NCBI RefSeq assembly: GCF_005153485.1
Contig: NZ_CP039740.1
Coordinates: 3,847,001 to 3,911,000, forward strand
Direction of reading: 5' to 3'
Length of the DNA: 64,000 nucleotides
Origin: Pseudolabrys sp. FHR47
GTDB taxonomy: Bacteria; Pseudomonadota; Alphaproteobacteria; Rhizobiales; Xanthobacteraceae
A program made the translations under genes and the position numbers. Below, in pieces: positions 14,491-58,771 of this stretch (within the stretch, counting starts at the first letter, position 1; each line of letters starts with the position of its first letter). The notes beneath the pieces were generated by a model. It did no database searches. It was not told the origin of the DNA and was given only the letters and a program-made list of their open reading frames with translations.

Positions 14491-15957
14491 TCAGAGGACA
14501 GCCCTCACACACTCGTCGATACGTCGTGGCAGCGCCGTATCGAGCACCTTGCCGATAATGACAAGCACGGGCCCCGTCAGTTGGGCTTGGGCGATGTCGT
14601 CATGCAGCGCGGCGATGGTCGACACGACGCGCCGCTCCGACGGGCGCGTTGCATTCGCGATCGCCACCGCGGGCATTCCCGCGTCGAGACCTGCCGCAAC
14701 GGCGCGCGTGACGAAAGCGGACAGCGTCTTCACCGGCATATAGATCGCCGTCGTCGCCGCGCCGTCAGCAATGCTCTGCCAGTCGATATCGTCCGGAAGT
14801 TCGCCATTGGCGGCATGGCCGGTGACGAGTTGCAGGCGGCGCGCTTGTCCGCGGCCCGTCAGCGACACGCCAAGCCGGCTCGCCGCGCCCTGAACGGCCG
14901 AGATTCCGGGGACGATTTCGACCGGGATGCCAGCCTGTTGGCAGGCCGCGATTTCTTCGCCGGCCCTGCCGAAGATCAACGGATCGCCGCCCTTGAGACG
15001 CACGACATGGCGGCCCTGCCGCGCGAGCGACACCATGATGTCGTTGACATCGCTCTGCCTGCAGGACGGGCCATGCCCGCGCTTGCCGACCAGAATTTTG
15101 CGGGCCTCACGACGGGCGAAATCGAGAACCTCGCCGGAAACGAGATCGTCGAACAAAATCACGTCGGCGCTCTGCAAGGCGCGCACAGCGCGCAGCGTGA
15201 GCAATTCCGGATCGCCGGGCCCGGCGCCAACCAGCGTCACCGATCCGGCATGCGCCGTCGGGCCGAGCCTGTCGACATCCGCCATGAGAGACGCAAGATC
15301 GCTTTCCGCCGGCGTGCGACCGGGATTGGCGATCGCCAGCCCAGCGAACAATTGCCAGAACTTGCGGCGCCCCGCGAACGACAGACCGCTCTCCTTGACG
15401 CGTCCGCGCCAGAAGCGCGCCGCCGCGGCCCAGGCCGCAAAGCCGTGCGGCAGCACGGCTTCGATCTTGGCGCGGACAGCCTGCGCAAACACCGGCGCGG
15501 CGCCATCGGTCGAGATACCCACCACCAGCGGCGAGCGATTCACGATGGAGCCGAAGGAGAAATCGCAATAGTCCGGCTTGTCGATGACGTTCACCGGCGC
15601 GCCGGCGGCTCGCGCCGCAGCGGCAAACCGCGCGGCATCGTCCTCGTCGTTCTCGCACGCGCCGACGGCCAGCGCCGCGCCCGCGAAATCCTCAGGCTGC
15701 CAGCCGCGCGCATGCCAGGTCACAGTACCGGGCAACGCCGCGCCGATAACGGCCTGCATCTCTTCGCCGATCTCCTGTGCATAGACGGCGACATGAGCGC
15801 CGGCCGCGAGCAGAAGCTCAACCTTCCACGCGGCGGCAGCGCTGCCACCGGCAACCAGCGTCTGCCGTCCGGACAACGCGAAGAACACCGGAAGCCGCGC
15901 CAGCGTCCCCATGCGTGCGCTACGCTGCTCCATCGGCTGGCGCGGCACGATCGTCAT
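14491..15957 (-). CDS. cysG: Siroheme synthase (precorrin-2 dehydrogenase/ferrochelatase and uroporphyrinogen-III C-methyltransferase)
   Basis: The 488-residue protein is a full-length CysG. The N-terminal Rossmann part has VAGGSAAAAWKVELLLAAGA for NAD-dependent precorrin-2 oxidation and iron insertion. The C-terminal methyltransferase starts VTLVGAGPGDPELLTLRAVR and has the RLKGGDPLIFGRAGEE motif. It makes siroheme for the sulfite reductase encoded just upstream. The start overlaps the cysI stop by four bases (ATGA), so translation is likely coupled. It is the last gene of the leftward cysJ-cysI-cysG operon. Confidence 0.93.
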   Translation of the reverse strand: MTIVPRQPMEQRSARMGTLARLPVFFALSGRQTLVAGGSAAAAWKVELLLAAGAHVAVYAQEIGEEMQAVIGAALPGTVTWHARGWQPEDFAGAALAVGACENDEDDAARFAAAARAAGAPVNVIDKPDYCDFSFGSIVNRSPLVVGISTDGAAPVFAQAVRAKIEAVLPHGFAAWAAAARFWRGRVKESGLSFAGRRKFWQLFAGLAIANPGRTPAESDLASLMADVDRLGPTAHAGSVTLVGAGPGDPELLTLRAVRALQSADVILFDDLVSGEVLDFARREARKILVGKRGHGPSCRQSDVNDIMVSLARQGRHVVRLKGGDPLIFGRAGEEIAACQQAGIPVEIVPGISAVQGAASRLGVSLTGRGQARRLQLVTGHAANGELPDDIDWQSIADGAATTAIYMPVKTLSAFVTRAVAAGLDAGMPAVAIANATRPSERRVVSTIAALHDDIAQAQLTGPVLVIIGKVLDTALPRRIDECVRAVL

Positions 15958-17705
15958 GCGCTGCGCCTTGCGCCGGTGTTGGCGTGGAAGTCGCGCCCGT
16001 TCGAGGTCTGCGCGACGAAGCCCGCGCGGACGGTGAAATCGCCGAAGTGTTCGCCCGCGTGCCGATCGCGCGCATAGGCGGCGAACACGGGGTCAAGCGT
16101 GTTGACGATGCCATCATGATCGAGGCTCTCGGCATAGAGCTTCGACAGACGGGAGCCGTCGAACGCCGCGCCGAGATAAAGATTGTATCGGCCCGGCCCT
16201 TTGCCGACGAGGCCGATCTCGGCGAGATAAGGCCGTGCGCAACCGTTCGGGCAGCCGGTCATGCGGATGACGATGTCGTCTGCCGACAGGCCGTGACGCG
16301 CCAAGCTCTCATCCAGCGCATCCATCAATTGCGGCAGGTAGCGCTCGCTTTCGGCTAGGGCGAGACCGCAGGTCGGCAGCGCGACGCAAGCCATCGAATT
16401 ACGCCGCAGGCCCGACCACGGCGCGAGCAAGCCGTTGGTTTTGGCGATCTCGTCGATCTGCGCCTGCTTCTCGACCGGCACATTGGCGACGATGAGATTC
16501 TGGTTCGGCGTGATGCGGATATCGCCGACGCCGAGCCGCGCGATCTGCCGCAAGGCCGACATTTGCTGCGCGCCCGGCCCGGCATCGCGCAGCCGCCCGT
16601 TCTGCACGAACAAGGTGAGATGTGCCTTGCCGTCATCGCCTTGCGTCCAGCCATAGCGGTCGCCCATCGAGGTGAAGGCGAACAACTTCGGCGCTTCGAA
16701 CTTGATCCCGGCGCGCGTTTCCACCTCGGCGCGGAATACGTCGAGACCGCGATCCTCGACGGTGTATTTCAGCCGCGCATGCTTGCGGCTGGTGCGGTCG
16801 CCCCAGTCGCGCTGGACCGTGACGACTGCTTCGGCCACACGCAGCGCTTCATCGGGCTTGCAGAAGCCGAGCAAATCGGCCGTGCGCGGATAGGTGTCGG
16901 TCTCGCCATGGGTCATGCCCATGCCGCCGCCGATGGTGACATTCCATCCCGTCACATCGCCCGCCGCGTCGACGATGGCGATAAAGCCGAGATCGTGGGC
17001 ATAGACATCGACGTCGTTCGACGGCGGCACCGCGATAACGGTTTTGAACTTTCGCGGCAAATAGGTCTTGCCGTAGATCGGCTCGACATCGTCCTTGGGC
17101 TCGCCGCCAGCGATCTTCTCGCCCTCCAGCCAGATTTCCCGATAGGCCGCCGTCTTCGGCGTCAGATGGTCGGAGATGGCCTGCGCCAATTTGAGCGCCA
17201 CGCCGTGGGCGCGCGACTGATACGGGTTGGGATTGCTCATGACATTGCGGTTGACGTCGCCGCATGCCGCAATGGTGTTGAGCAGTTGCTTGTCGATCTC
17301 CTTCAACGTCGCGCGCAGGTTCGACTTGATGACGCCGTGAAGCTGCACCGTCTGCCGCGTGGTCAGGCGCATCGTGCCGTTGGCGTAAGTGCGGGCGACA
17401 TGATCGAGCGCCAGCCACTGCTCCGGCGTCACTACGCCGCCGGAAATGCGCACGCGCAGCATGAAGGAAAACGCCTTCTCCATGCGCTTGCGGCCGCGCT
17501 CGGCGCGCAGGTCGCGGTCGTCCTGCAGATACATCCCGTGGAATTTGACCAGCTGCTGATCGTCCTCGACGATCGCGCCGGTGATGGCGTCCTCAAGGCC
17601 CTCGGTCAGCGTGCCACGCAGATACTCACTGGCTTCCTTGATGTACTCGTTGCGGGCCAGTTCTTTGGTCATGGTCGGGGTCCCGGCCAGAAGCGCGGCG
17701 CTCAT
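15954..17705 (-). CDS. cysI: Sulfite reductase hemoprotein (beta subunit)
   Basis: The 583-residue protein reduces sulfite to sulfide with six electrons. The [4Fe-4S]/siroheme ligands are C440, C446, C485 and C489 (ACVALPTC and TGCPNGCARP), which marks a siroheme enzyme. RLTTRQTVQLHGV and GGMGMTH are also typical. The neighbouring cysJ supplies NADPH electrons, so the assimilatory sulfite role is much more likely than nitrite reduction. The GTG/ATG choice is an ATG at 17705; an internal ATG at 17672 (MTKELARNEY) is an alternative. It overlaps cysG and lies 16 bp after cysJ. Confidence 0.92.
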   Translation of the reverse strand: MSAALLAGTPTMTKELARNEYIKEASEYLRGTLTEGLEDAITGAIVEDDQQLVKFHGMYLQDDRDLRAERGRKRMEKAFSFMLRVRISGGVVTPEQWLALDHVARTYANGTMRLTTRQTVQLHGVIKSNLRATLKEIDKQLLNTIAACGDVNRNVMSNPNPYQSRAHGVALKLAQAISDHLTPKTAAYREIWLEGEKIAGGEPKDDVEPIYGKTYLPRKFKTVIAVPPSNDVDVYAHDLGFIAIVDAAGDVTGWNVTIGGGMGMTHGETDTYPRTADLLGFCKPDEALRVAEAVVTVQRDWGDRTSRKHARLKYTVEDRGLDVFRAEVETRAGIKFEAPKLFAFTSMGDRYGWTQGDDGKAHLTLFVQNGRLRDAGPGAQQMSALRQIARLGVGDIRITPNQNLIVANVPVEKQAQIDEIAKTNGLLAPWSGLRRNSMACVALPTCGLALAESERYLPQLMDALDESLARHGLSADDIVIRMTGCPNGCARPYLAEIGLVGKGPGRYNLYLGAAFDGSRLSKLYAESLDHDGIVNTLDPVFAAYARDRHAGEHFGDFTVRAGFVAQTSNGRDFHANTGARRSA

Positions 17706-17721: not shown

Positions 17722-19467
17722 TTAATAGGTGTCGGTCAGGTAGCGTTTGTCGCGCTCGATTTGAGCCACGGCGGCTTCGGCGGCCTCGGCGCTCAGCGAT
17801 TTGACGTCCTGATAGGAGCGCACCAGCGCGGCGCGGACGTCCTTGGCCATCGCCTTGGCGTCGCCGCACACGTAGAAATTGGCGCCGCCATCCAACCATT
17901 CGACGATGTCGCGCCGGCGCTCCCAGATGCGGTCCTGGACGTAGATCTTCTCGGGCTGGTCGCGCGAGAAAGTGACGTCCATGCGTGTCAGGTCGCCTTC
18001 CTTCAAGGCCTCCTGCCATTCGAGCTGATACAGGAAGTCGTGAGTGAAGTGACGGTCGCCGAAGAACAGCCAACTGCGGCCCTTCGCGCCGGCCGCGCGG
18101 CGCTCCTGCACAAAGGCGCGAAACGGCGCGATGCCGGTGCCGGGTCCGACCATGATGATGTCACGGCCGTCGGAGGGCAGACGGAAATGCTTGTTGGAAC
18201 GAACCTTGACGCGAACCTTGTCGCCGCGCTTGCGCCTCTCCGCGATATAGTTCGACGCGACCCCCTTGCGGGCGCGGCCGTGCGTCTCGTAGCGCACGGC
18301 GGAGATCAGGAGATGGGCTTCGTCTTCGTTTTCGCGGCGGGATGACGCGACCGAGTAAGCGCGGGGCGCCAGCGTGCGCGTCACGGCGCGCAAATTCTCG
18401 GCGGTCAGGGCGATCGGGAAGTTCGAGACGAGATCGATCAGCTGACGGCCCTGGATCCAGTCGCGGGCTTCACCGCTCTCGATCAGTTCTTTGACGTATT
18501 GCTGGCCCGTCGCGGTGGCGTAGGTCTCCAGACTCTTCAGCGAAAGCGTGTGAATGTCACGCTGCGAGACCAATTCGTCGCGCAACGCACGATCTTCCGA
18601 TAGCCCTGCGGCCTTGAGCAGCTCATCCACCTCAGCCGGATCGTTCTCAATGTAGAGATCGAGCGAGTCGCCCGGCTCGTAGGGCAGCACCGTGTCGGTG
18701 AAACGCAGCGCGAGGTGAACGGTCTCCTTGTCCGAGCGGGACGAGTTAAGATTGGTCAGTTCAACGATCTCCGCCTCGACAATGTCGGGCTTGACCGCGG
18801 CGGCCTTGCCGAACTCGACGGGAATGATCTTGCCGCGCGCAGCTTCCGGCGGCGCCAGCGCCTTGACAGCCTTGTCTGTCCAAGCCGCCGCCGGCTTCTC
18901 GAAATCGAGGTCGCAATCGAGGCGATCGACCACACGCTTGCCGCCCAGAGCTGCGAGGCGTTCGTCGATCTTGCGGCCAACCGCGCAAAACTCGGCATAG
19001 GCCGTATCGCCAAGCGCCAGCACGGCGTATTCCACGCCATCGAGCGGGCCGAAATCAGCCGTCATCAATTCATTGTATTTCGCTGCAACCCGCGACGGCG
19101 GCTCGCCCTCGCCCCATGTCGCCGCCACGAAGACCAGCCGCCTGGCGGATTTCAGGGTCGCCATATCAAGATCGGCAAGGTCGATGACCGACGGCTTGAG
19201 ACCGCTCTTGCGGGCGTTACGCGCAATGTCGTTGGCGAGGCGCTCGGAGTTGCCGGATTCGGTCGCGAACACGATGGTCAACGGCTCGGCGGCAACGGCG
19301 GCCGGCGCCGCGATCTCCACGACTTCGCCGGAGACGGATTCGACGCCGGCGAGAAAACCCGCGAGCCAGGCGCGCTGCGTGGCGGTAGCACCACCAACGA
19401 CCTGATTAAGAAGCGCGATGTCTTCGTCCCCGAACGGCGCTGTTTTCGGGATCTGCACCACAGCCAT
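17722..19467 (-). CDS. cysJ: NADPH-sulfite reductase flavoprotein (alpha subunit)
   Basis: The 581-residue diflavin reductase passes electrons from NADPH through FAD and FMN to CysI. The flavodoxin FMN loop is TESGNSE at residues 69-75. The FAD domain has RAYSVASS, and the NADPH part has GPGTGIAPFRAF and the family C terminus RYLTDTY. The ATG at 19467 follows GGGAG eight bases upstream and gives the usual start. It is the first gene of the cysJIG operon and faces cysD across about 540 bp. Confidence 0.93.
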   Translation of the reverse strand: MAVVQIPKTAPFGDEDIALLNQVVGGATATQRAWLAGFLAGVESVSGEVVEIAAPAAVAAEPLTIVFATESGNSERLANDIARNARKSGLKPSVIDLADLDMATLKSARRLVFVAATWGEGEPPSRVAAKYNELMTADFGPLDGVEYAVLALGDTAYAEFCAVGRKIDERLAALGGKRVVDRLDCDLDFEKPAAAWTDKAVKALAPPEAARGKIIPVEFGKAAAVKPDIVEAEIVELTNLNSSRSDKETVHLALRFTDTVLPYEPGDSLDLYIENDPAEVDELLKAAGLSEDRALRDELVSQRDIHTLSLKSLETYATATGQQYVKELIESGEARDWIQGRQLIDLVSNFPIALTAENLRAVTRTLAPRAYSVASSRRENEDEAHLLISAVRYETHGRARKGVASNYIAERRKRGDKVRVKVRSNKHFRLPSDGRDIIMVGPGTGIAPFRAFVQERRAAGAKGRSWLFFGDRHFTHDFLYQLEWQEALKEGDLTRMDVTFSRDQPEKIYVQDRIWERRRDIVEWLDGGANFYVCGDAKAMAKDVRAALVRSYQDVKSLSAEAAEAAVAQIERDKRYLTDTY

Positions 19468-20008
19468 CGCACAACTCCCAGCGTCGGGACACGGCAGCAA
19501 GCCGCCTGATGCCCGCAATTACTTGAGGTTGTTAGATAGAAGGCTCCGGCAGAAACAGGCAATAGAACCGCTGAAATAAGAAGGAAACCATTGTCCCCGC
19601 CGTCATCACGGCGATAATTTTTCACGACCTTGGCGAAAGCGACCAACCTCACCTACGCGGCTGCGTCCATTCGTAAGGCGTTAATAACGTCAAGCTTCGG
19701 ATACCTTTCATCGCCACGCCACTCATCACGGAGGACAGTCGAAAAGCAGGCAAAAACTTTCGGCTTTCGAACGCCGCGTTAGAACACAATACTTCTCCGC
19801 CTATCACGAGCCCCGGAAGATATTTCCAAATATTCATTCGTATCAGTCAGTTCATTGACCACCGCAGATTCAGGTTTAAAACAACTCGCATGGAGCGCGT
19901 GCAATTGTCGCTTCAAGTTCATAACTGCTCCGATGACACGCCGCGCCCATCAGAAACGTTTTCTTCGTTTCCAGTCCGCGCGGCGCCCGGAGTGCGAATT
20001 GGTGCCCG
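19468..20008. promoter_or_regulatory. Divergent intergenic region between cysJ and cysD
   Basis: This 541-bp gap holds no convincing gene. It should contain the promoters of both sulfate-assimilation operons. A stem (CGCCGT-catc-ACGGCG, 19598-19613) followed by ATAATTTTT looks like a terminator or leader hairpin on the plus strand. The right half is AT-richer than its neighbours. No regulator binding motif that I can name was recognised. Confidence 0.5.
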
Positions 20009-20803
20009 ATGGAACGTCTCGATGAACTCGAAGCACAGAGCATATTCATTCTGCGCGAGGCCTTTGCGCGCCTGAACAAGATCGCGCTGCTCTGGTCGCT
20101 CGGCAAAGACTCGAATGTGATGATCTGGCTGGCGCGCAAGGCCTTCTTCGGCCGCGTGCCCTTCCCGGTCATGCATGTCGACACGGGCAAGAAGTTTCCC
20201 GAAATGTACGCTTTTCGCGATCGCTACGCGAAGGAGTGGAATCTCGACTTTATCGCGGAAGAGTGCCCGCCGATCGACGCCGTCGATCCGTCATTGCCGC
20301 CCGCGGCGCGGTCCGCAGCGCGCAAGACGGAAGGCCTCAAACTAGCTTTGGCCAAACACGGCTTCGACGGGCTTATCGCCGGCATCCGCCGCGACGAGGA
20401 GCCGACGCGCGCCAAGGAACGTGTGTTCTCGCCACGCGGCGCCGAAGGCATCTGGGATGTCCGCGACCAGCCGCCGGAGTTCTGGAACCACTTCAACGCC
20501 TCACCGCCGCCCGGGGCGCATCTGCGCATCCATCCGATCCTGCATTGGACCGAAGCCGATATCTGGGCCTATACGCGCCGCGAGAGCATCCCGATCATTT
20601 CGCTCTATCTGAGCAGGAACGGCCAGCGCTACCGATCGCTCGGCGACATGGACATCACTTCCCCCGTCGCGTCGGACGCGTCATCGATCGACGAGATCAT
20701 CGCCGAACTCGATTCCACCAAAGTGCCGGAGCGTTCCGGCCGCGCCATGGATCACGAATCCGAGGACGCGTTCGAGCGCCTGCGCACCGCCGGATATCTC
20801 TAG
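20009..20803 (+). CDS. cysD: Sulfate adenylyltransferase small subunit
   Basis: The 264-residue ATP-pyrophosphatase-family subunit makes adenylyl-sulfate (APS) from ATP and sulfate. The PP-loop is SLGKDSNVM (usually SIGKDS), followed by VMHVDTGKKFPEMYAFRD and GIRRDEEPTRAKERVFS. The C-terminal region has SIDEIIAELDSTKVPERSGR. It works with the GTPase subunit encoded 11 bp downstream. The ATG at 20009 has only a distant GGAG, so the start is slightly uncertain. First gene of the cysD-cysNH operon. Confidence 0.93.
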   Translation: MERLDELEAQSIFILREAFARLNKIALLWSLGKDSNVMIWLARKAFFGRVPFPVMHVDTGKKFPEMYAFRDRYAKEWNLDFIAEECPPIDAVDPSLPPAARSAARKTEGLKLALAKHGFDGLIAGIRRDEEPTRAKERVFSPRGAEGIWDVRDQPPEFWNHFNASPPPGAHLRIHPILHWTEADIWAYTRRESIPIISLYLSRNGQRYRSLGDMDITSPVASDASSIDEIIAELDSTKVPERSGRAMDHESEDAFERLRTAGYL

Positions 20804-20814
20804 GGTCGCCCACC

Positions 20815-22854
20815 ATGAACGTTCTGGTCTCTCCGCACACCGTCACCAACCTCCAGCAACCGCAGGCAACCCGCATCGTCATCGTCGGTGACGTCGATCA
20901 CGGCAAATCGACCTTGATCGGCCGGCTGCTCTACGAAACCGGCAGCCTGCCGGACGGCAAGTTCGAGAGCCTCAAGGCCATGAGCGCGCGGCGCGGGATG
21001 CCGTTCGAATGGTCGTTCCTTCTGGACGCGCTGCAGACCGAACGCGATCAGGGCATCACCATCGACACCAGCCAGATCCGCTTCCGTACCGCGCTCCGCG
21101 ATTTCGTGCTGATCGACGCGCCGGGCCACATCGAATTCCTGCGTAACATGATCACCGGCGCGGCCCAGGCTGACGCCGCGCTGCTGCTCATCGACGCCAC
21201 CGAAGGGGTTCGCGAGCAGACTCGGCGCCACGGCTATCTCCTGCATCTGCTCGGCATCCGGCAGGCCGCCGTTATCATCAACAAGATGGATCGGGTCGGC
21301 TACAGCCAAGACCGTTATCGCGAAATCGCCGATGAGATTGCCACCTATCTCGGTGCGCTCGACATCGAGCCGGTTGCGATCGTGCCGATCTCGGCCCGCG
21401 AGGGCGACGGGATCACCGTGAAGACCCGGGCTATTGCCTGGTATGACGGCCCGACGGTCGCGGAAGCCCTCGATCAATTCACCGTGGCGACGCCGCCTCA
21501 GGATCTCGATCTGCGCCTGCCGGTGCAAGCTGTCTATAAATTCGACGACCGGCGCATTATCGCCGGCCGAATTGAAAGCGGTCGTATTGCCATCGGCGAC
21601 GAGATCGTTGTCCTGCCCGGCAACAAGGTTGCGCGCGTGAAATCCATCGAAAGCTGGCCGGTGGCCGACGCCGCGCACCCGCCGTCGAGCCTCGAGGCCG
21701 GCCGCTCGGTCGGCGTGACGCTCGACCGCGAACTGTTCATCGAGCGCGGCCATATCCTGGCGCTCGCCACGGCGCCGTCTCCGATCGTTAATGGCATTCG
21801 CGCACGGATATTCTGGCTGCACCCGGCGCCGCTCAAGGCGGGCACGCCGATCGTTGTGCGATCGGGCACAGCTGAAATCCGCGGCCGCGTGTCGGCGATC
21901 GTCGACGCGCTCGATCCCGCCGATTTGCAATCGGATGGCATCGAGATTATCGCCCAGAACCGGATCGGCGAGATCGATATCGCCCTCGCCGCACCGGCGG
22001 CGTTCGATACCTTCGCGGACAATCCGTTTACCGGCCGCTTCGCCATCGAAGTCGATGGCCGCATTGCCGGCGGCGGCATTGCCGTCGAGCTAAAGCAGGC
22101 GGGCACCGAACGGCATCGCCCTGCCGCGAACGGCCGCGATGCCGAGGCGGTGGAACGCCGTGTCGCCGCCCTGCTCCCCCGGTTGAAAGAGCAGACCGCG
22201 ACTGAGCGGCTGGCGACCTTGCGCGATTCAATCGACGGCAAGATCGTCTTCACCACCAGCTTCGGCATCGAGGATCAGGCCATCCTGCACATGATCGCCA
22301 AGGGAGGCCTCGATATCGACGTGGTCAGCCTCGACACCGGACGGCTGTTCCCGCAGACCTACGATCTCTGGGCGGAAACCGAGCGTCACTTCGGCCTTCG
22401 CATCAAGGCATTCTATCCGCGCCATTTCGAACTCGAAGCCCTGGTCGAGCGCCAGGGAATCAACGGCTTCTACGAAAGCCGCGATGCACGCCAAGCCTGC
22501 TGTTTCGTCCGCAAGGTCGAACCGCTCAGCCGTGCGCTGGCCAATTCGGCCGCGTGGGTCACAGGCCTGCGCGCCGATCAGTCCGCGAACCGGAAGGACA
22601 TGGCGCTCGTTTCCGCCGACAAGGCGCACGGTCTCGTCAAGCTGAGCCCGCTGTTCGACTGGTCGCGTGAGCAAGTTGTCGCCTTCACGGCATCGAACGG
22701 CGTGCCTGTGAACGCGCTGCACGACAAAGGCTTTGCGTCGATCGGCTGCGCCCCATGCACCCGCGCGCTGCGCCCCGGCGAACCGGAGCGCGCCGGGCGT
22801 TGGTGGTGGGAAGACGAGACGAAGAAGGAATGCGGCCTGCATCCTGGCCGCTAG
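20815..22854 (+). CDS. cysN-cysH: Fused sulfate adenylyltransferase GTPase subunit and APS reductase (CysN-CysH)
   Basis: One uninterrupted 679-residue frame joins two enzymes. Residues 1 to about 425 are CysN, an EF-Tu-like GTPase: G1 loop GDVDHGKST at 25-33, DAPGH at 101-105, NKMD at 156-159, then two beta-barrel domains. Residues from about 443 are a CysH-type reductase: TSFGIEDQ, LDTGRLFPQTY, the C562-C563 and C645-C648 Fe-S ligands (CC and CAPC), and the C-terminal ECGLH with catalytic C673. The CC...CxxC pattern points to an APS rather than PAPS reductase. Both halves are near full length. The common CysN partner, CysC kinase, is absent, so APS could be reduced directly. The stop TAG lies in an inverted-repeat element. 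Confidence 0.93.
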   Translation: MNVLVSPHTVTNLQQPQATRIVIVGDVDHGKSTLIGRLLYETGSLPDGKFESLKAMSARRGMPFEWSFLLDALQTERDQGITIDTSQIRFRTALRDFVLIDAPGHIEFLRNMITGAAQADAALLLIDATEGVREQTRRHGYLLHLLGIRQAAVIINKMDRVGYSQDRYREIADEIATYLGALDIEPVAIVPISAREGDGITVKTRAIAWYDGPTVAEALDQFTVATPPQDLDLRLPVQAVYKFDDRRIIAGRIESGRIAIGDEIVVLPGNKVARVKSIESWPVADAAHPPSSLEAGRSVGVTLDRELFIERGHILALATAPSPIVNGIRARIFWLHPAPLKAGTPIVVRSGTAEIRGRVSAIVDALDPADLQSDGIEIIAQNRIGEIDIALAAPAAFDTFADNPFTGRFAIEVDGRIAGGGIAVELKQAGTERHRPAANGRDAEAVERRVAALLPRLKEQTATERLATLRDSIDGKIVFTTSFGIEDQAILHMIAKGGLDIDVVSLDTGRLFPQTYDLWAETERHFGLRIKAFYPRHFELEALVERQGINGFYESRDARQACCFVRKVEPLSRALANSAAWVTGLRADQSANRKDMALVSADKAHGLVKLSPLFDWSREQVVAFTASNGVPVNALHDKGFASIGCAPCTRALRPGEPERAGRWWWEDETKKECGLHPGR

Positions 22855-22974
22855 AGCGTTTGGGAGCGAAGTGGAAACCGGTTCGCATCCCTTTCACAGG
22901 TGTCTGTGATCACGCCGTGGTCTCGAGCGCGTAGCGCGTTCGCGCACGACGCTCGACACCACTCAATGCTCTAG
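22851..22974. repeat. 124-bp element with terminal inverted repeats (MITE-like)
   Basis: The element is bounded by CTAGAGC (22851-22857) and GCTCTAG (22968-22974). Its left part, GAGCGAAGTGGAAACCGGTT, resembles a short intergenic element I recall as common in Hyphomicrobiales genomes; this is recollection, not a search. It fills the gap between convergent genes, and each terminal repeat contains the TAG stop of the adjacent gene. No transposase is present. Confidence 0.6.
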
Positions 22975-23954
22975 CTAACCGCCCGGGCCGCAGCCAGGTG
23001 AGGCGCGTCGACATCGAACATCTCATGCTGCCACGCCTTGTACCAATCCTTGAACAGCCGGTGCTGCGTCTCGACATAACGACGCTGGCTTTCGGAAAGC
23101 GCATCGGCCGGATTGAAATGAAGGACGTACTCCTGATGTCCTTCAAGCACCATCAGATACTTGTAGTAGAGGACGAGATCGACGCCTTCGTCGAAGGACG
23201 ACAACACCCCCAACGCACGCTCGAGTTCTTGAGCGCGGCGCATGGCGGTCGGATCGCCTTTCGCCGCCTGCTCGCACAATGCAACGAGGTGCAGAACCTC
23301 CTTCGGCAGGGCATTGCCGATTCCCGTGATAGCGCCACGGGCGCCGCAATTGATATAGCCGTGGAACACCTGCGTATCCACACCGACCATCAGCGTCAGA
23401 TCCGGATCGCGGCCGGTGATATGCTCCGCAGCGTAGCGCAGAGACTCGGCGCCGCCGAATTCCTTGAAGCCAATCAAATTCTTGTGGCGGGCGCGCAACT
23501 CGAAGAAAAGATCCGCCTTCGTTTCGTACCCATAATAAGGGCTATTGTAGATGACCGCGGGCAAGCCGCCCGCCTCCAGCACGCTTTCGAAGTGGTCGCG
23601 CTGCGCCGCGACCGACGATCCGCGTGACAAGACGCGCGGAATGACCATCAAGCCGCCGGCGCCCACCTTCTTGGCGTGCGCGGCTATCGCCGCGGCCCGG
23701 CGGGTATTCTGCGCGCCGGTGCCCACGATAACCGGTACACCCGCCGCGGTGAGCCGGGCGACGCCCTCCATGCGCTGTTCGTCATCGAGCAACGGCCAGT
23801 CGCCCATCGACCCGCAGTAAACGACAGCCGACATGCCGCTCTTGATGAGGCTCTTGCCGGTCTCGACCAACGCGTCGAAATTGGGTTGCCGCGACGGGGT
23901 GCAAGGGGTCATCAGCGCCGGAATCGTGCCGGAAAAGATGTTTGATGTCTTCAC
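22971..23954 (-). CDS. Dihydrodipicolinate synthase family aldolase/lyase
   Basis: The 327-residue TIM-barrel protein belongs to the DapA/NAL superfamily. The Schiff-base lysine is in IGFKEFGG and the catalytic tyrosine in VIYNSPYYGYE. The GTG at 23954 is chosen because AGGAGG lies nine bases upstream; a longer start at 23990 would place that site inside the gene. The C-terminal extension after the barrel is longer than in DapA. It lies in a leftward run with a TRAP transporter, so it probably splits or forms a 2-keto acid imported by that system rather than making lysine. Substrate unknown. Confidence 0.85.
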   Translation of the reverse strand: MKTSNIFSGTIPALMTPCTPSRQPNFDALVETGKSLIKSGMSAVVYCGSMGDWPLLDDEQRMEGVARLTAAGVPVIVGTGAQNTRRAAAIAAHAKKVGAGGLMVIPRVLSRGSSVAAQRDHFESVLEAGGLPAVIYNSPYYGYETKADLFFELRARHKNLIGFKEFGGAESLRYAAEHITGRDPDLTLMVGVDTQVFHGYINCGARGAITGIGNALPKEVLHLVALCEQAAKGDPTAMRRAQELERALGVLSSFDEGVDLVLYYKYLMVLEGHQEYVLHFNPADALSESQRRYVETQHRLFKDWYKAWQHEMFDVDAPHLAAARAVS

Positions 23955-24063
23955 GACGGGTTTCCTCCTGTGTTGTTGGCCCCCGGCCACCCGACGGCCG
24001 CGACCAAGAGAGGCGCCCGGTCGCGGTTTGCGCGACCGGACATCTCAGGCGGTTAGCGATGGA

Positions 24064-25047
24064 TCAGAGCGTCTTTCCGACCTTGCGCAGTTCGGCGAGG
24101 ACAGGCGCTTTCGGCAGCCAGATCTTGTCGTACTCGGCGACAACGGCAGCCGCGTCGGCAGGATTCGCCGTCTTGACCGGAATTGAGGCGGCCTTGAACT
24201 GCGCAACAAGCTTCGGCTCGTTGGCGGCCAGTTCATCGATCTGACGATCGAGCTGCTTCTTGACGACTTTGGTGATGAGATCCTTGTCGGCCGCGGGGAG
24301 CGCCTGCCAGACGCGGCCCGATGCCAGTGCGATGACCGGCATGAAGATCGCGTTCATCATCAGGATCGTCTTCGAAACCTTGTCGAACCGTTGGTTCCAC
24401 GAGAACTCGAGATCGGCCTCAAGGCCATCGACCTGACCATTGGTCATGGCATCGAAAACCTGAGGCGTCGGGATCGGCGTCGGCGCAGCGCCGAGAAGCT
24501 GGTAGAAGTCGCGGTAAGCCGGCGTCGGATTGATGCGCAGCTTCATCCCCTTGAGATCCGCGATGGAGGAAATTTCCCGCGCGGAGAAGACAGCGCGCAT
24601 GCCGGTGATGCCCCAGGCCAGGCCGACAGTGCCGGTTTCGCGCGGCAGCACATCGAATAGGCTTAAGGCAACCGGATGCCGGACGAGTTTGGCAATCTTG
24701 TCGGTGGAGTCGACGACGTAGGGCGCCGTGATCGCGGCGATCGACGGCACGCGCGAACCAAGTTCGGCCGCCATGATCCATCCCATGTCGAGCGCGCCGG
24801 ATTGCATCTGCTGCAGCATAGCCGCCTCGCTGCCGAGCTGGCCGGCGTGAAACACCGTCATGGTCAGTCGGCCGCTGGTCTCGGCCTTGAGTTCGTCCGC
24901 CACGCGCAGCGCCGCATTGTTCCAGGGGTGACCGGTCGGCGTCAGGATACCGAGGCGAAGCTCGCGTGCCTGAGCCCGCAGGATGGTCGGCGCGGCGAGC
25001 GGCAGAGTCGCGCCCGCAGCGAGGAGAAGACGACGAGATATCTTCAT
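24064..25047 (-). CDS. TRAP transporter solute-binding protein (DctP family)
   Basis: The 327-residue periplasmic protein starts with an export signal (MKISRR then hydrophobic, ending near LRAQ). The DctP-fold signatures include GILTPTGHPWN near the N terminus, AWGITGMRAVFS and MKLRINPTPAYRDFYQLLGAAP, the last containing the carboxylate-binding arginine region. It delivers an organic acid to the membrane subunits encoded upstream. TCAGGAG precedes the ATG at 25047. Order on the minus strand is dctQ, dctM, dctP, then the aldolase. Confidence 0.9.
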   Translation of the reverse strand: MKISRRLLLAAGATLPLAAPTILRAQARELRLGILTPTGHPWNNAALRVADELKAETSGRLTMTVFHAGQLGSEAAMLQQMQSGALDMGWIMAAELGSRVPSIAAITAPYVVDSTDKIAKLVRHPVALSLFDVLPRETGTVGLAWGITGMRAVFSAREISSIADLKGMKLRINPTPAYRDFYQLLGAAPTPIPTPQVFDAMTNGQVDGLEADLEFSWNQRFDKVSKTILMMNAIFMPVIALASGRVWQALPAADKDLITKVVKKQLDRQIDELAANEPKLVAQFKAASIPVKTANPADAAAVVAEYDKIWLPKAPVLAELRKVGKTL

Positions 25048-25073
25048 TGGATTTCTCCTGATGATGGTCCAGG

Positions 25074-26339
25074 TCATTTGACCAGAACGAGTGAGAGGGA
25101 AGGAAATATCGAGAGAAACACGAGCAGAATGCAGGCAACGATGAAGAAGGGCAGCGTCACCATGAACATGCGGCCGGGCTTTGCCCCCGTCACGGCGGCT
25201 GCGACGAAGAAGCAGAGCCCAACGGGAGGCGAGAGCAGCCCGAGCACCAGATTGATCACCGCCACCACGCCGAAGTGCCGAGGGTCGATGCCGTAAATAT
25301 CGGTCGCGATCGGCAGGAGGATCGGCACGGTCATGATCAGGCCGGGGATGCCGTCGATCACGGTTCCGATGACCAGCAGCGCCAGATTGGCGAGCAACAT
25401 GAACTCGACCGGGCTATGCGCGATGGTCTGGATAGACGCCGCGAGCGATTGCGGGACCTTTGCGTAGATCAGGACCCAGGAAAACACGCTAGCCGCTGCG
25501 ACCAGGAACAACACGATCGCTGCGTAGATGCCGGCCCGAAGCAGCATGTGCGGCAGCTGCTCAAAGCGGAACTGCTTTGTCCAATAGCGGCCAACCAATG
25601 CCGAGGCCACCGATCCGATGGCGGCCGATTCAGTCGGGTTCGCCAGACCGCCAAGGATCGAGCCGACGATGACGATCGGAATCAATAATGTGGGCGCAGC
25701 GCCTGCCACGATCACTGCCCGCTCCTTGAGCGTGCGTCTTTCGCCGGGCGGGTAATTGTAGAAAAACCCAAGCGCGGCGATCGTGGCAAAGAACAGCAAC
25801 GTCAGAAGTATGCCGGGAACAACACCCGCGGCCAGCATATCGCTTACAGAAACCTGCGCGAGCACGCTGTAGACGACGAACATGACCGAAGGCGGAATGA
25901 TCGGGCCCAACATACCACCATAGGCGGTGAGACCCGCGGCGAATGTCTTGTCGTACCCCTTCTTCTCCATCTCCGGCACCATGATCTGTGCCATGACCGC
26001 GACCTGGGCGGTCGCCGAACCGAGAATGGCCGCGACGAACATGTTTGCGAGCACATTGACGTAAGCAAGGCCGCCCTTGAGCGATCCGACGAACGCCATG
26101 GCAAGGTCCACAATGCGCCGGGTGATGCCACCGCCATTCATGATTTCGCCGATCAAAATGAACAGCGGAATGGCGATAAGCCCGTAACTATCGACGCCAC
26201 CGAAGAGCTGAAGCGGATAGTTCTGAAAGAGAATTGGATTTCCGGACAACGTCAGGAAAACGATGGCCCCCAGACAAAGGCACATGCCAATCGGAACGCC
26301 GACCAGCATGATGGCAACGATGGCGGCGATCGACGTCAT
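25074..26339 (-). CDS. TRAP transporter large permease (DctM family)
   Basis: This 421-residue, about 12-helix membrane protein forms the sodium-coupled channel of a TRAP importer. GLIAIPLFILIGEIMN, GGMLGPIIPPSVMFVVY and GLLSPPVGLCFFVAA are characteristic DctM segments. It follows the small permease gene by one base and precedes the solute-binding protein gene. The substrate is probably a carboxylate, but the sequence does not say which. Confidence 0.92.
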   Translation of the reverse strand: MTSIAAIVAIMLVGVPIGMCLCLGAIVFLTLSGNPILFQNYPLQLFGGVDSYGLIAIPLFILIGEIMNGGGITRRIVDLAMAFVGSLKGGLAYVNVLANMFVAAILGSATAQVAVMAQIMVPEMEKKGYDKTFAAGLTAYGGMLGPIIPPSVMFVVYSVLAQVSVSDMLAAGVVPGILLTLLFFATIAALGFFYNYPPGERRTLKERAVIVAGAAPTLLIPIVIVGSILGGLANPTESAAIGSVASALVGRYWTKQFRFEQLPHMLLRAGIYAAIVLFLVAAASVFSWVLIYAKVPQSLAASIQTIAHSPVEFMLLANLALLVIGTVIDGIPGLIMTVPILLPIATDIYGIDPRHFGVVAVINLVLGLLSPPVGLCFFVAAAVTGAKPGRMFMVTLPFFIVACILLVFLSIFPSLSLVLVK

Positions 26340-56006: not shown

Positions 56007-57716
56007 CTACGGGTTGTTGCGCAGACGCGCGGCGAACAGAATGACCGCGCTCATGACAAAGAGAACGAGCGTCGATACGGCGGCTAATAGGGGAGAGAAC
56101 CGCAATGTCGCTTCATCCCACATCAGCTTCGGCAGCGTCGATTGCAGCCCGCCTGACGTGAACAGCGCGACGTTTAATTCATCGAGCGAGATGACAAATG
56201 CGAACAATGAGGCCGCGATGACGCCGCCGGCAATCAGCGGCAGCGTTACATGCCGCACCGTGGCAAAGGGCGTCGCGCCGAGCGACGCGGCGGCAAGATC
56301 GAAGCGGCGGTCGTAGGTCTTCAGGACCGCCGTCACTGCGATAAATACATACGGCAACGCGATGATGGTGTGGCCGATCACCAGTCCGATGGTCGTGCCG
56401 ACTAAGCCGAGCCGGGCATAGACGTAGAACAGCGCGACCGCGATCACCATGCGCGGCACCAGCAGCGGGGCGATCATCGCAGCGAAGGCCGCGCTCGCGC
56501 TACCGCCTTTCAAGCGCATGAAGGCGAAAGCCGCAGGCACGGCAACGACAAGACACAACGCCGTCGTCGACAGCGCGACGAGAAGAGAACGGCCGGCCGC
56601 ATCAAGCCAGTTCGACGACGAGAGAACCTCGCGATACCAGCGCAAGCCAGGTTGGCCGGGGGGCCAGGCCAAAAATTCGCGTTCGGAGAACGACACCGGC
56701 AGCAACACAAGAAGCGGCACGATCAGAAACAGAATGGTGCCGACGGCGAGCGCGGTCGTTGCCTGGCCGCGGCGGCCCGGCAACGGCGCCGGTAGGCGCA
56801 AAGCCTCGGCAATGCCGGCAAACATATCGCCCAGCGCCCCGACGATCCGCCGGCCGAGAATGCTTTCGCCCGACGTCTGGCGCGCGGTTCCCGACAGCGT
56901 TGAAAGGCCGACCAGCCGGTCGAACAGAAAGAACAGCAGCAGCGCCGTCAGCAGCAGCAGCAGACACAGAATGGCGGCGAACGGCCAGTTCACCAGTTCG
57001 GTGACCTGCTGGATGACGAGCTGGGTGATCATCGTCTCTCGCGCGCTGCCGAGCAGCGCCGGCGCCATGAAGAAACCGAGCGCCGAGATGAAGACGAGCA
57101 GGAACGCCGCCGTGGCGCCGGGAAACGACAGCGGCAGGTAAACCCGGAAGAAAGCCTGCACCGGCCGCGCGCCGAGCGTGCCGGCGGCAACGACCAGACG
57201 CCGGTCGATCCGCTCCATCACCCCGACCATGGTCAGAATGGCGAAAGGCACGAGCACATTGGTCATGCCGATAACCACCGCGCTCCAGCCATAGAGCAGT
57301 TCAAGCGGCTGCCCGGTAAGACCGAGCGCCGTCAGCGTCGCATTGACCGGCCCCTGCCGCCCGAGAATGACGATCCAGGCGAAGGTCCGCACCAGGAAGC
57401 TCGACCAGAATGGCAGCAACACCAGCACCGTCCAGGTCGATTTGCTGCGGGGATCGGCATTGGCAAGGATGAAGGCCGCCGGATAGCCGACGACGACGCT
57501 CAACACCGCGACCCACAGCGAAATGTTCACCGAGGCCAACATCACCTGCATGTAGGTGCCGGCCTCCCACATGCGCCTGACGTGGTCCAGCGTGATCGAA
57601 CCATCCGCTCCGACGAAACCTTGCGTCATGAACCCGCCGATCGGCACGACGAAGAATAGCCCTAGCAGCAAGGCTGCCGGAACAAACAGAATGATTGGGC
57701 CTGCCGCCTTCCTCAC
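56007..57716 (-). CDS. Fused PotB-PotC-type ABC permease
   Basis: This 569-residue protein joins two permease units. Each has an EAA loop: AAGTLGARPVQAFFRVYLPL in the first half and AAASLGATPFATVRHVTLPL in the second. Together they give about twelve helices and a complete heterodimer-like channel in one chain. The type is the spermidine/putrescine (PotBC) or 2-aminoethylphosphonate (Phn) class. It lies between the ATPase (overlap of four bases) and the hydratase gene (9-bp gap). Confidence 0.9.
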   Translation of the reverse strand: MRKAAGPIILFVPAALLLGLFFVVPIGGFMTQGFVGADGSITLDHVRRMWEAGTYMQVMLASVNISLWVAVLSVVVGYPAAFILANADPRSKSTWTVLVLLPFWSSFLVRTFAWIVILGRQGPVNATLTALGLTGQPLELLYGWSAVVIGMTNVLVPFAILTMVGVMERIDRRLVVAAGTLGARPVQAFFRVYLPLSFPGATAAFLLVFISALGFFMAPALLGSARETMITQLVIQQVTELVNWPFAAILCLLLLLTALLLFFLFDRLVGLSTLSGTARQTSGESILGRRIVGALGDMFAGIAEALRLPAPLPGRRGQATTALAVGTILFLIVPLLVLLPVSFSEREFLAWPPGQPGLRWYREVLSSSNWLDAAGRSLLVALSTTALCLVVAVPAAFAFMRLKGGSASAAFAAMIAPLLVPRMVIAVALFYVYARLGLVGTTIGLVIGHTIIALPYVFIAVTAVLKTYDRRFDLAAASLGATPFATVRHVTLPLIAGGVIAASLFAFVISLDELNVALFTSGGLQSTLPKLMWDEATLRFSPLLAAVSTLVLFVMSAVILFAARLRNNP

Positions 57717-58771
57717 GGAGCCTCCACGAGCGGCACAACATCTTCGGGCGAAACTGCCATCGCGATGGTCGCTCCCTGCTCGAGCAGATGGGCACCGCCC
57801 AGCACCGTCATGGTGAGCGTCAGACCGCCACCCACAGCAATGACCAGTCGATGCACAGCGCCAAGATGGATGATGTCGATCACGGTGCCCGTGAATGCGG
57901 AGTTTTCCGAAACTGCAGCAATCCGCAGACGCTCCGGCCTAACAAGCACCGTCACCTTGTGCCCTTCCGGCGGCAGACGGCCCGGATAGGCCGTACGCAA
58001 GAGGCAGCCTGCCACATCGATCGCGCCGCCGCGAACGACGCCGTCGATAAGATTGCTCTCGCCGACAAAGGCGGCAGCGAAGCGGCTGCGCGGCCGGTCG
58101 TACAACGCCACCGGCGTGTCGATCTGTTCGACGCAGGCCTCGTTCATGAGACAAACGCGATCGGACAGCAGCATTGCTTCTTCCTGATCGTGCGTCACAT
58201 AAACGATGGTCTTCTTCAATTCAGCATGGAGTTTACGGATTTCGAGCTTGAGTTCGTCGCGCAGCTTCTTGTCCAGCGCGCCGAGCGGTTCATCCATCAG
58301 GACGAGTTGCGGTTCGAACACGATGGCGCGTGCGAAAGCGACGCGCTGCTGCTGACCGCCGGAAAGCTCGTTCGGCAGGCGCGAGGCAAGGTGCCCAAGC
58401 CGCACGAGATCGAGCGCACGGCCAACCGCGGCTTTCACTCTGCCTTGCTCCTGCTTCCGCATGCGCAGAGGAAACGCCACGTTCTCGAAGACGCTCAGAT
58501 GCGGGAACAGCGCGTAATTCTGGAACACGACGCCGATTTCGCGGCGATAGGCCGGGCTTAACGTGATGTCATGACCGTCGAGCAGGATATGGCCGCCGGA
58601 CGTCTCGGTTAGCCCCGCGATCATCATCAGCAAGGTCGTTTTGCCTGAACCCGAAGGCCCCAGCAGCGTGAGAAACTCGCCGTTGGCCACAGTGAGGTCG
58701 GTCGGGTGCAACGCCACCGCATCGCCGTAGCGCTTGGTGACGCCCCGAAGGTCGAGCTTGGGAGGTGTCAT
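57713..58771 (-). CDS. PotA-type ABC ATPase
   Basis: The 352-residue ATPase has a Walker A (GPSGSGKTT), the signature LSGGQQQRVAFARAIV, a Walker B (LVLMDEPLGALD) and a C-terminal TOBE-like regulatory domain from about residue 270. It belongs to the spermidine/putrescine or iron/phosphonate group. The start is ATG at 58771. Its stop overlaps the permease start by four bases, so the genes are coupled. Confidence 0.92.
   Translation of the reverse strand: MTPPKLDLRGVTKRYGDAVALHPTDLTVANGEFLTLLGPSGSGKTTLLMMIAGLTETSGGHILLDGHDITLSPAYRREIGVVFQNYALFPHLSVFENVAFPLRMRKQEQGRVKAAVGRALDLVRLGHLASRLPNELSGGQQQRVAFARAIVFEPQLVLMDEPLGALDKKLRDELKLEIRKLHAELKKTIVYVTHDQEEAMLLSDRVCLMNEACVEQIDTPVALYDRPRSRFAAAFVGESNLIDGVVRGGAIDVAGCLLRTAYPGRLPPEGHKVTVLVRPERLRIAAVSENSAFTGTVIDIIHLGAVHRLVIAVGGGLTLTMTVLGGAHLLEQGATIAMAVSPEDVVPLVEAP

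Follow-up and report, generated by a model that had tools for sequence, protein, structure and literature searches.

The locus studied here raises the question of whether a single bacterial protein can join sulfate activation to APS reduction, and what such a joint would mean for the cell. Within the window, the 64,000-nucleotide stretch of Pseudolabrys sp. FHR47 DNA that was analysed, translation together with Pfam and NCBIfam searches identified a forward-strand frame (20815..22854), free of internal stops, that encodes a 679-aa CysN-CysH fusion, here called cysNH. Domain models and motifs assign residues 1-421 (20815..22077, forward strand) to CysN, an EF-1alpha/EF-Tu-like GTPase, and residues 463-679 with the stop codon (22201..22854, forward strand) to a CysH of the APS-reductase type. 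Comparison with other fusions indicated that the intervening residues 422-462 (22078..22200, forward strand), which comprise a linker and the start of the CysH N-terminal region, are variable in length and sequence.

Both parts were recognized by Pfam: GTP_EFTU (PF00009) at residues 19-220 (E 1.1e-45), GTP-eEF1A_C at 328-422 (E 5.9e-15) and PAPS_reduct (PF01507) at 476-651 (E 2.1e-43), with only a weak match to EF-Tu domain 2 (20.8 bits against a cut-off of 30.3). Neither an APS kinase domain (PF01583) nor a Sat-type ATP sulfurylase domain (PF01747) matched the protein at E 1e-3. The GTPase motifs GDVDHGKST (25-33), DAPGH (101-105) and NKMD (156-159), and the reductase cysteines C562-C563, C645-xx-C648 and C673 in the C-terminal ECGLH, all lie where the initial annotation had placed them. 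NCBIfam models for CysN and CysNC covered residues 13-430, and those for CysH residues 443-677. The protein scored 329 bits with the CysN model TIGR02034, 7 bits under its cut-off of 336.1 (three further fusions: 321, 328 and 335 bits), and 234.3 with the APS reductase model TIGR02055, 1 bit under its cut-off of 235.3; among other fusions, that of genome G032 scored above the latter cut-off (239.6), and those at loci L223 (214.6) and L077 (221.8) below it. The general CysH model NF002537 (phosphoadenylyl-sulfate reductase) was passed with 254 bits, the cut-off being 154. By sequence, the nearest solved structure to the CysH part is the Pseudomonas aeruginosa APS reductase 2goy (167 bits), followed by a PAPS reductase (107 bits). 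At the level of sequence, these matches confirm the in-frame fusion first proposed for this locus, in which a complete CysN GTPase subunit is joined to a complete, predicted [4Fe-4S]-type APS reductase.

To establish its distribution, the full fusion was used as a query, and matches extending over both parts in one frame were counted, the window's own genome included. The architecture was found in 17 genomes, 16 of them in the window's family (six genera) and one in an alphaproteobacterium outside it; as all share the same contiguous arrangement, a sequencing frameshift is untenable, and an assembly artefact at the joint is likewise ruled out. Among the matches listed, the fusion was present in 5 of 43 genomes in the genus scan and 16 of 391 in the family scan (genus g1, five; g27, seven; g33, g36, g39 and g46, one each), and the class scan (385 genomes) added one more, in genome G1148 of family f165; the order (397 genomes) and phylum (398) scans listed no fusion besides the window's own. 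The scans from genus to phylum overlap, and the four larger ones scored two to three candidates per genome, and may therefore overlook a fusion that has diverged strongly. Even within the genus the distribution is patchy, 38 of the 43 members having no fusion among the matches listed. In a collection of named strains, the best 80 of 580 loci contained one fusion, that of Xanthobacteraceae bacterium JOPF034 (L077, in G257). The outlying G1148 is a draft of 130 contigs (96% complete, 5% contamination), in which the fusion (L223) lies on a 22-kb contig and which also has another CysN (51% identity) and a PF01747 (Sat) match; horizontal transfer, an independent fusion and a mis-binned contig are candidate readings of this occurrence.

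Several apparent fusions were rejected. At two Bacteroidota loci (L053, L056), matches that looked contiguous turned out to span a pair of neighboring ORFs; the match in G1132 (L224), in a 581-aa frame, was a CysH beside canonical CysD and CysN; and those in G462 and G715 (L225, L226) were long-frame CysHs that lacked a CysN match and had a CysI-like ORF beside or overlapping them. Of 543 matching plasmid records, 12 had a place covering at least 80% of the query, and all 12 were in two pieces over about 2.7-3.2 kb, and thus unfused. None of the 29 phage records with a match covered 80% of the query.

Immediately upstream of the fusion lies cysD (20009..20803, forward strand; 264 aa), identified by NCBIfam and by alignment to canonical CysD; its adjacency, noted at the outset, was borne out, with 11 bp separating its stop from the cysNH start codon. 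This CysD passed the general model NF003587 (343 bits against 195) but missed TIGR02039 (251.7 against 396.6), and it is a short form without a 29-residue segment that the genome's canonical CysD has. The short CysD adjoins the fusion in all 17 loci (in L221 it is cut by the contig end), and also stands beside CysNC in 14 mapped loci of Bradyrhizobium, Rhodopseudomonas, Afipia and Tardiphaga type (82-86% identity); the short form therefore belongs to the chassis rather than to the fusion. Divergent from cysD-cysNH, on the reverse strand, are genes for a CysJ-like sulfite reductase flavoprotein (17722..19518; TIGR01931, 562 bits, below the cut-off of 668), the sulfite reductase hemoprotein CysI (15954..17705; NF010029, 832 bits, cut-off 457) and the siroheme synthase CysG (14491..15957; NF007922, 506 bits, cut-off 400). 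The region thus forms one divergent cluster for sulfate activation, APS reduction, sulfite reduction and siroheme synthesis. Comparison of the cysJ-cysD intergenic region (19519..20008) revealed blocks conserved in G033 and G032, which together with the window are the three fusion loci of 17 in which cysJ-cysI linkage was mapped. In the stretches examined around the other 14 fusions, none was mapped, save CysI-like ORFs at L217 (25% identity) and L223 (44% identity).

The genome as a whole (G000; one contig of 4,517,519 bases) has a second route to APS. A second CysN, 37% identical, forms part of a 626-residue CysNC beside the canonical CysD (L238; G000:C1:3564388-3567020), about 0.3 Mb from the fusion. 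The initial annotation saw no cysC, which holds at the sulfur locus but not genome-wide: PF01583 matched one APS kinase, the CysC part of this CysNC. It also saw no separate cysH, and this is true of the entire genome, as the three PF01507 matches are the two CysDs, one canonical and one short, and the fusion, which thus carries the only CysH. The suggested genome check for further copies thus returned a cysN and a cysC, both within CysNC, and no other cysH. ORFs beside the canonical pair appear by eye to be nucleotide-sugar dehydrogenase- and glycosyltransferase-like; these neighbors suggest a role in sulfation, and the canonical CysD-CysNC is probably a sulfation system. The genome seems, then, to show a division, with CysD-CysNH in the sulfite reductase locus and CysD-CysNC beside nucleotide-sugar/glycosyl-transfer-like ORFs. 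Given the canonical pair, the fusion is not the sole source of APS in this organism.

We compared the sulfur genes of the other fusion genomes, searching the 16 of the family with PF01583 and PF01507, and these plus G1148 with PF01747. APS kinase gave a strong match in five of the 16 (G000, G001, G015, G257, G264), a partial or weak one in five (G220, G249, G300, G080, G117) and no match in six (G033, G032, G087, G195, G290, G284). A second complete CysH was absent from 15 of the 16, G284 having extra fragments on other contigs. Sat matched in G001 and G257, as well as in G1148; in G001, which also has the fusion, APS kinase and Sat-type matches adjoin on the same strand (G001:C134:1318-2455). 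Three of the six genomes without a PF01583 match are near-complete (G033 and G032, 99%; G087, 100%). Each has two PF01507 matches, one CysD and the fusion, with no PF01583 or PF01747 match and no other CysD or CysH; no further CysN above the EF-Tu-like level was among the genus-scan matches listed for G033 and G032, and no second CysD was found in G087. CysD and the fusion should therefore take sulfate to sulfite via APS in these genomes. If they assimilate sulfate by the CysD-fusion route, the attached CysH should reduce the APS that CysD-CysN produces without its conversion to PAPS, and genome content thus supports the bypass of PAPS that had been suggested from the window.

On this evidence, CysD and CysNH are very probably the assimilatory sulfate-to-sulfite enzyme of Pseudolabrys sp. 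FHR47, with PAPS not an intermediate. CysD would adenylylate sulfate, and GTP hydrolysis on the CysN part would drive this unfavorable reaction; APS would then be reduced by the CysH part of the same chain, where Cys673 would attack the sulfur, a [4Fe-4S] cluster would be seated on C562-C563/C645-C648, and thioredoxin would then free sulfite, from which CysJ-CysI, encoded next door, would make sulfide. We infer the chemistry, the electron donor and the formation of a CysD-CysNH complex from the protein families concerned. Iron-sulfur cysteine pairs of this kind are linked to a preference for APS. It is highly improbable that the CysH part instead reduces PAPS supplied by the genome's CysNC, its joint to CysN being incidental: although an APS kinase is encoded in the window genome, and the best-passing NCBIfam model of the CysH part is that for phosphoadenylyl-sulfate reductase (NF002537), the cysteine pairs are present, the nearest solved structure is an APS reductase (2goy), and no APS kinase was matched in three near-complete fusion genomes.

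Both parts of the fusion are conserved. The P-loop and NKxD motifs are kept in 17 of 17 fusions, and DAPGH in 16 (the CysN part of G080, L212, has HAPGH, an unusual change of the switch-II Asp in DxxG); no fusion whose C terminus is intact (16 of the 17, the remaining one being cut by a contig end) has lost CC, CxxC or ECGLH. Across six fusion pairs, dN/dS was 0.10-0.21 for CysN, 0.09-0.18 for CysH and 0.15-0.87 for the linker, whose length between fixed points is 49-64 residues in the 17 fusions. The CysN and CysH parts are under purifying selection, and the overall pattern is as expected of two working domains on a loose tether.

We examined the ancestry of the two parts separately, with careful trees of 42 of 128 CysN rows and 55 of 112 CysH rows, and quick trees of 74 of 128 and 112 of 112 rows. 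The careful CysH tree excludes G284, whose CysH is truncated. A single clade (bootstrap/SH-aLRT 100/100) unites the fusion CysNs with those of the family's CysNCs, and the latter form a clade of their own inside it (100/99); the fusion CysN groups with that of the Bradyrhizobium/Rhodopseudomonas/Afipia-type CysNC. (Rhodopseudomonas L042 and Afipia L044 carry the label Nitrobacteraceae on the tree and are filed under Xanthobacteraceae in the genome taxonomy used.) The closest non-fusion CysNs (61-69% identity in the best rows) belong to family CysNCs beside the same short CysD, and in CysNC relatives read by eye the kinase domain is attached to CysN at the corresponding end; the CysH of the fusion thus occupies the position of CysC. 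The early suggestion that the reductase takes the place of CysC is thus supported, the nearest non-fusion relatives being CysN-CysC. The starting point of the fusion was very probably a short-CysD/CysN chassis, which in its nearest relatives has CysC at that end.

The joint may have formed once or several times: the AU tests do not reject one fusion clade, yet the best trees do not contain one. Fusion CysNs came together in 28% of 200 bootstrap trees, and a single clade gave p 0.322. In the CysH tree, 15 fusion CysHs group with nine standalone CysHs of the window's genus (99/84), with the CysH of G1148 outside; all fusion CysHs came together in 0% of 200 bootstrap trees and the well-supported branches call for two changes, with a single clade giving p 0.295, or 0.103 without G1148. 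The nine standalone CysHs (L228-L236) fall among those of the fusions, and no CysD, CysN, CysI or CysJ was mapped near them in the stretches examined. They may be either (i) fusions that have split or (ii) heirs of the donor, in the pre-fusion state, and they imply that a CysH of this type can do without the joint. The Bradyrhizobium-type standalone CysHs examined also carry the cysteine pairs, so that APS reduction extends beyond the fusion lineage.

Fusions of CysN with CysC are well known (e.g., PMC3141025), and the CysNC family (NF004035/PRK05506; NodQ-like) resembles cysNH in its CysN chassis, its C-terminal APS-using enzyme and its cysD neighbor. The two differ in that CysNC carries APS kinase and cysNH APS reductase, which should lead to reduction rather than to PAPS. 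Standalone thioredoxin-dependent CysHs (TIGR02055; 2goy) have the same cysteine pairs and C-terminal ECGLH, whereas in cysNH the CysH is joined to CysN; 96 standalone CysHs compared with the CysH part were 31-65% identical to it. In other alphaproteobacteria and in Bacteroidota, unfused cysH-cysD-cysN operons place the same three genes side by side, but as separate proteins. The eukaryotic APR-ATPS fusions share with cysNH an ATP sulfurylase component and an APS reductase on one chain; we take their ATP sulfurylase to be of the Sat type. Such one-chain proteins have been described in the dinoflagellates Heterocapsa and Amphidinium, in Chromera and in Capsaspora (PMC2275785, PMC4220642). In these proteins the reductase precedes the ATP sulfurylase domain (PMC4220642), whereas that of cysNH is C-terminal and attached to CysN, the GTPase subunit of a two-subunit enzyme with CysD.

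The initial annotation knew of no described example, and this stands in part. Among the matches listed in the open-access literature, there was no bacterial CysN-CysH fusion; still, 17 genomes carry one and the eukaryotic analogue is published (PMC2275785, PMC4220642). In the passages available of an archaeal fusion survey, CysH is joined to SufS or ThrC, with no CysN partner among them (PMC11237513). The string "cysDNH" in the open-access papers examined came from gene lists. As far as open-access literature listings go, then, CysN-CysH is a conserved and taxonomically modest architecture that is new in bacteria.

What the joint achieves could be simple. It may do no more than fix expression and a 1:1 stoichiometry, with APS diffusing freely and the domains not functionally coupled, a reading we consider about evenly balanced between true and false. 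It agrees with the variable length of the linker (49-64 residues) and with its rapid evolution (dN/dS 0.15-0.87), which leave no conserved interface visible in the linker, and with the frequency with which separate cysH, cysD and cysN genes are neighbors elsewhere; moreover, among the matches listed, 38 of 43 genus members have no joint, and nine have a related standalone CysH. What it explains less well is the persistence of the joint in 17 genomes from several genera, though an operon neighborhood could give co-expression. That same retention across genera would be expected if APS passes from CysD-CysN to the attached CysH without being fully released, reduction then pulling the unfavorable adenylylation of sulfate; we regard such channelling as possible, if somewhat doubtful. 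It would fit the position of CysH, which occupies the place that CysC, the enzyme that follows on the other branch, has in the nearest relatives, and the ATPS-APR fusion of Heterocapsa has been suggested to channel APS rapidly (PMC2275785). The linker, however, is not conserved, and PMC4220642 notes that the eukaryotic fusion lacks both activity and kinetic data.

A stronger form of channelling, in which CysD-CysNH kinetically couples GTP hydrolysis, sulfate adenylylation and APS reduction, with no release of APS and with reductase turnover gating the GTPase, appears unlikely. If true, bacteria would have on the reductive branch a channelling complex that parallels CysNC on the PAPS branch. 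One and the same end of CysN carries either APS kinase (CysNC) or a competing APS-using enzyme (CysNH), so that the make-up of the protein can decide whether APS goes to sulfation (through PAPS) or to reduction (to sulfite). With closely related CysN chassis, CysNH and CysNC together constitute a clean system for asking whether attachment to CysN channels APS.

Separate translation of CysH from an internal start was considered and rejected for the window, where start codons occur in the junction region but none with an upstream purine-rich word; such a pair was present in 3 of 17 fusions (L215, L216 and L223, at positions 4, 5 and 12 of the examined stretch). Rfam models at gathering thresholds found only a tRNA in the window, and promoter-like sites (2 against 0.8 expected) and terminator-like sites (5 against 3.3 expected) were little above chance. 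Downstream of the fusion (22971-26339, reverse strand) are, by eye, a dihydrodipicolinate synthase-like ORF and TRAP transporter-like ORFs, apparently not sulfur-related. Elsewhere in the window, a 569-aa reverse-strand ORF (56007-57716), by eye two joined ABC permease domains, is followed by an ATPase-like ORF (57713-58771); AT skew reaches 0.24-0.51 at 56400-57899, which hydrophobic minus-strand coding may explain.
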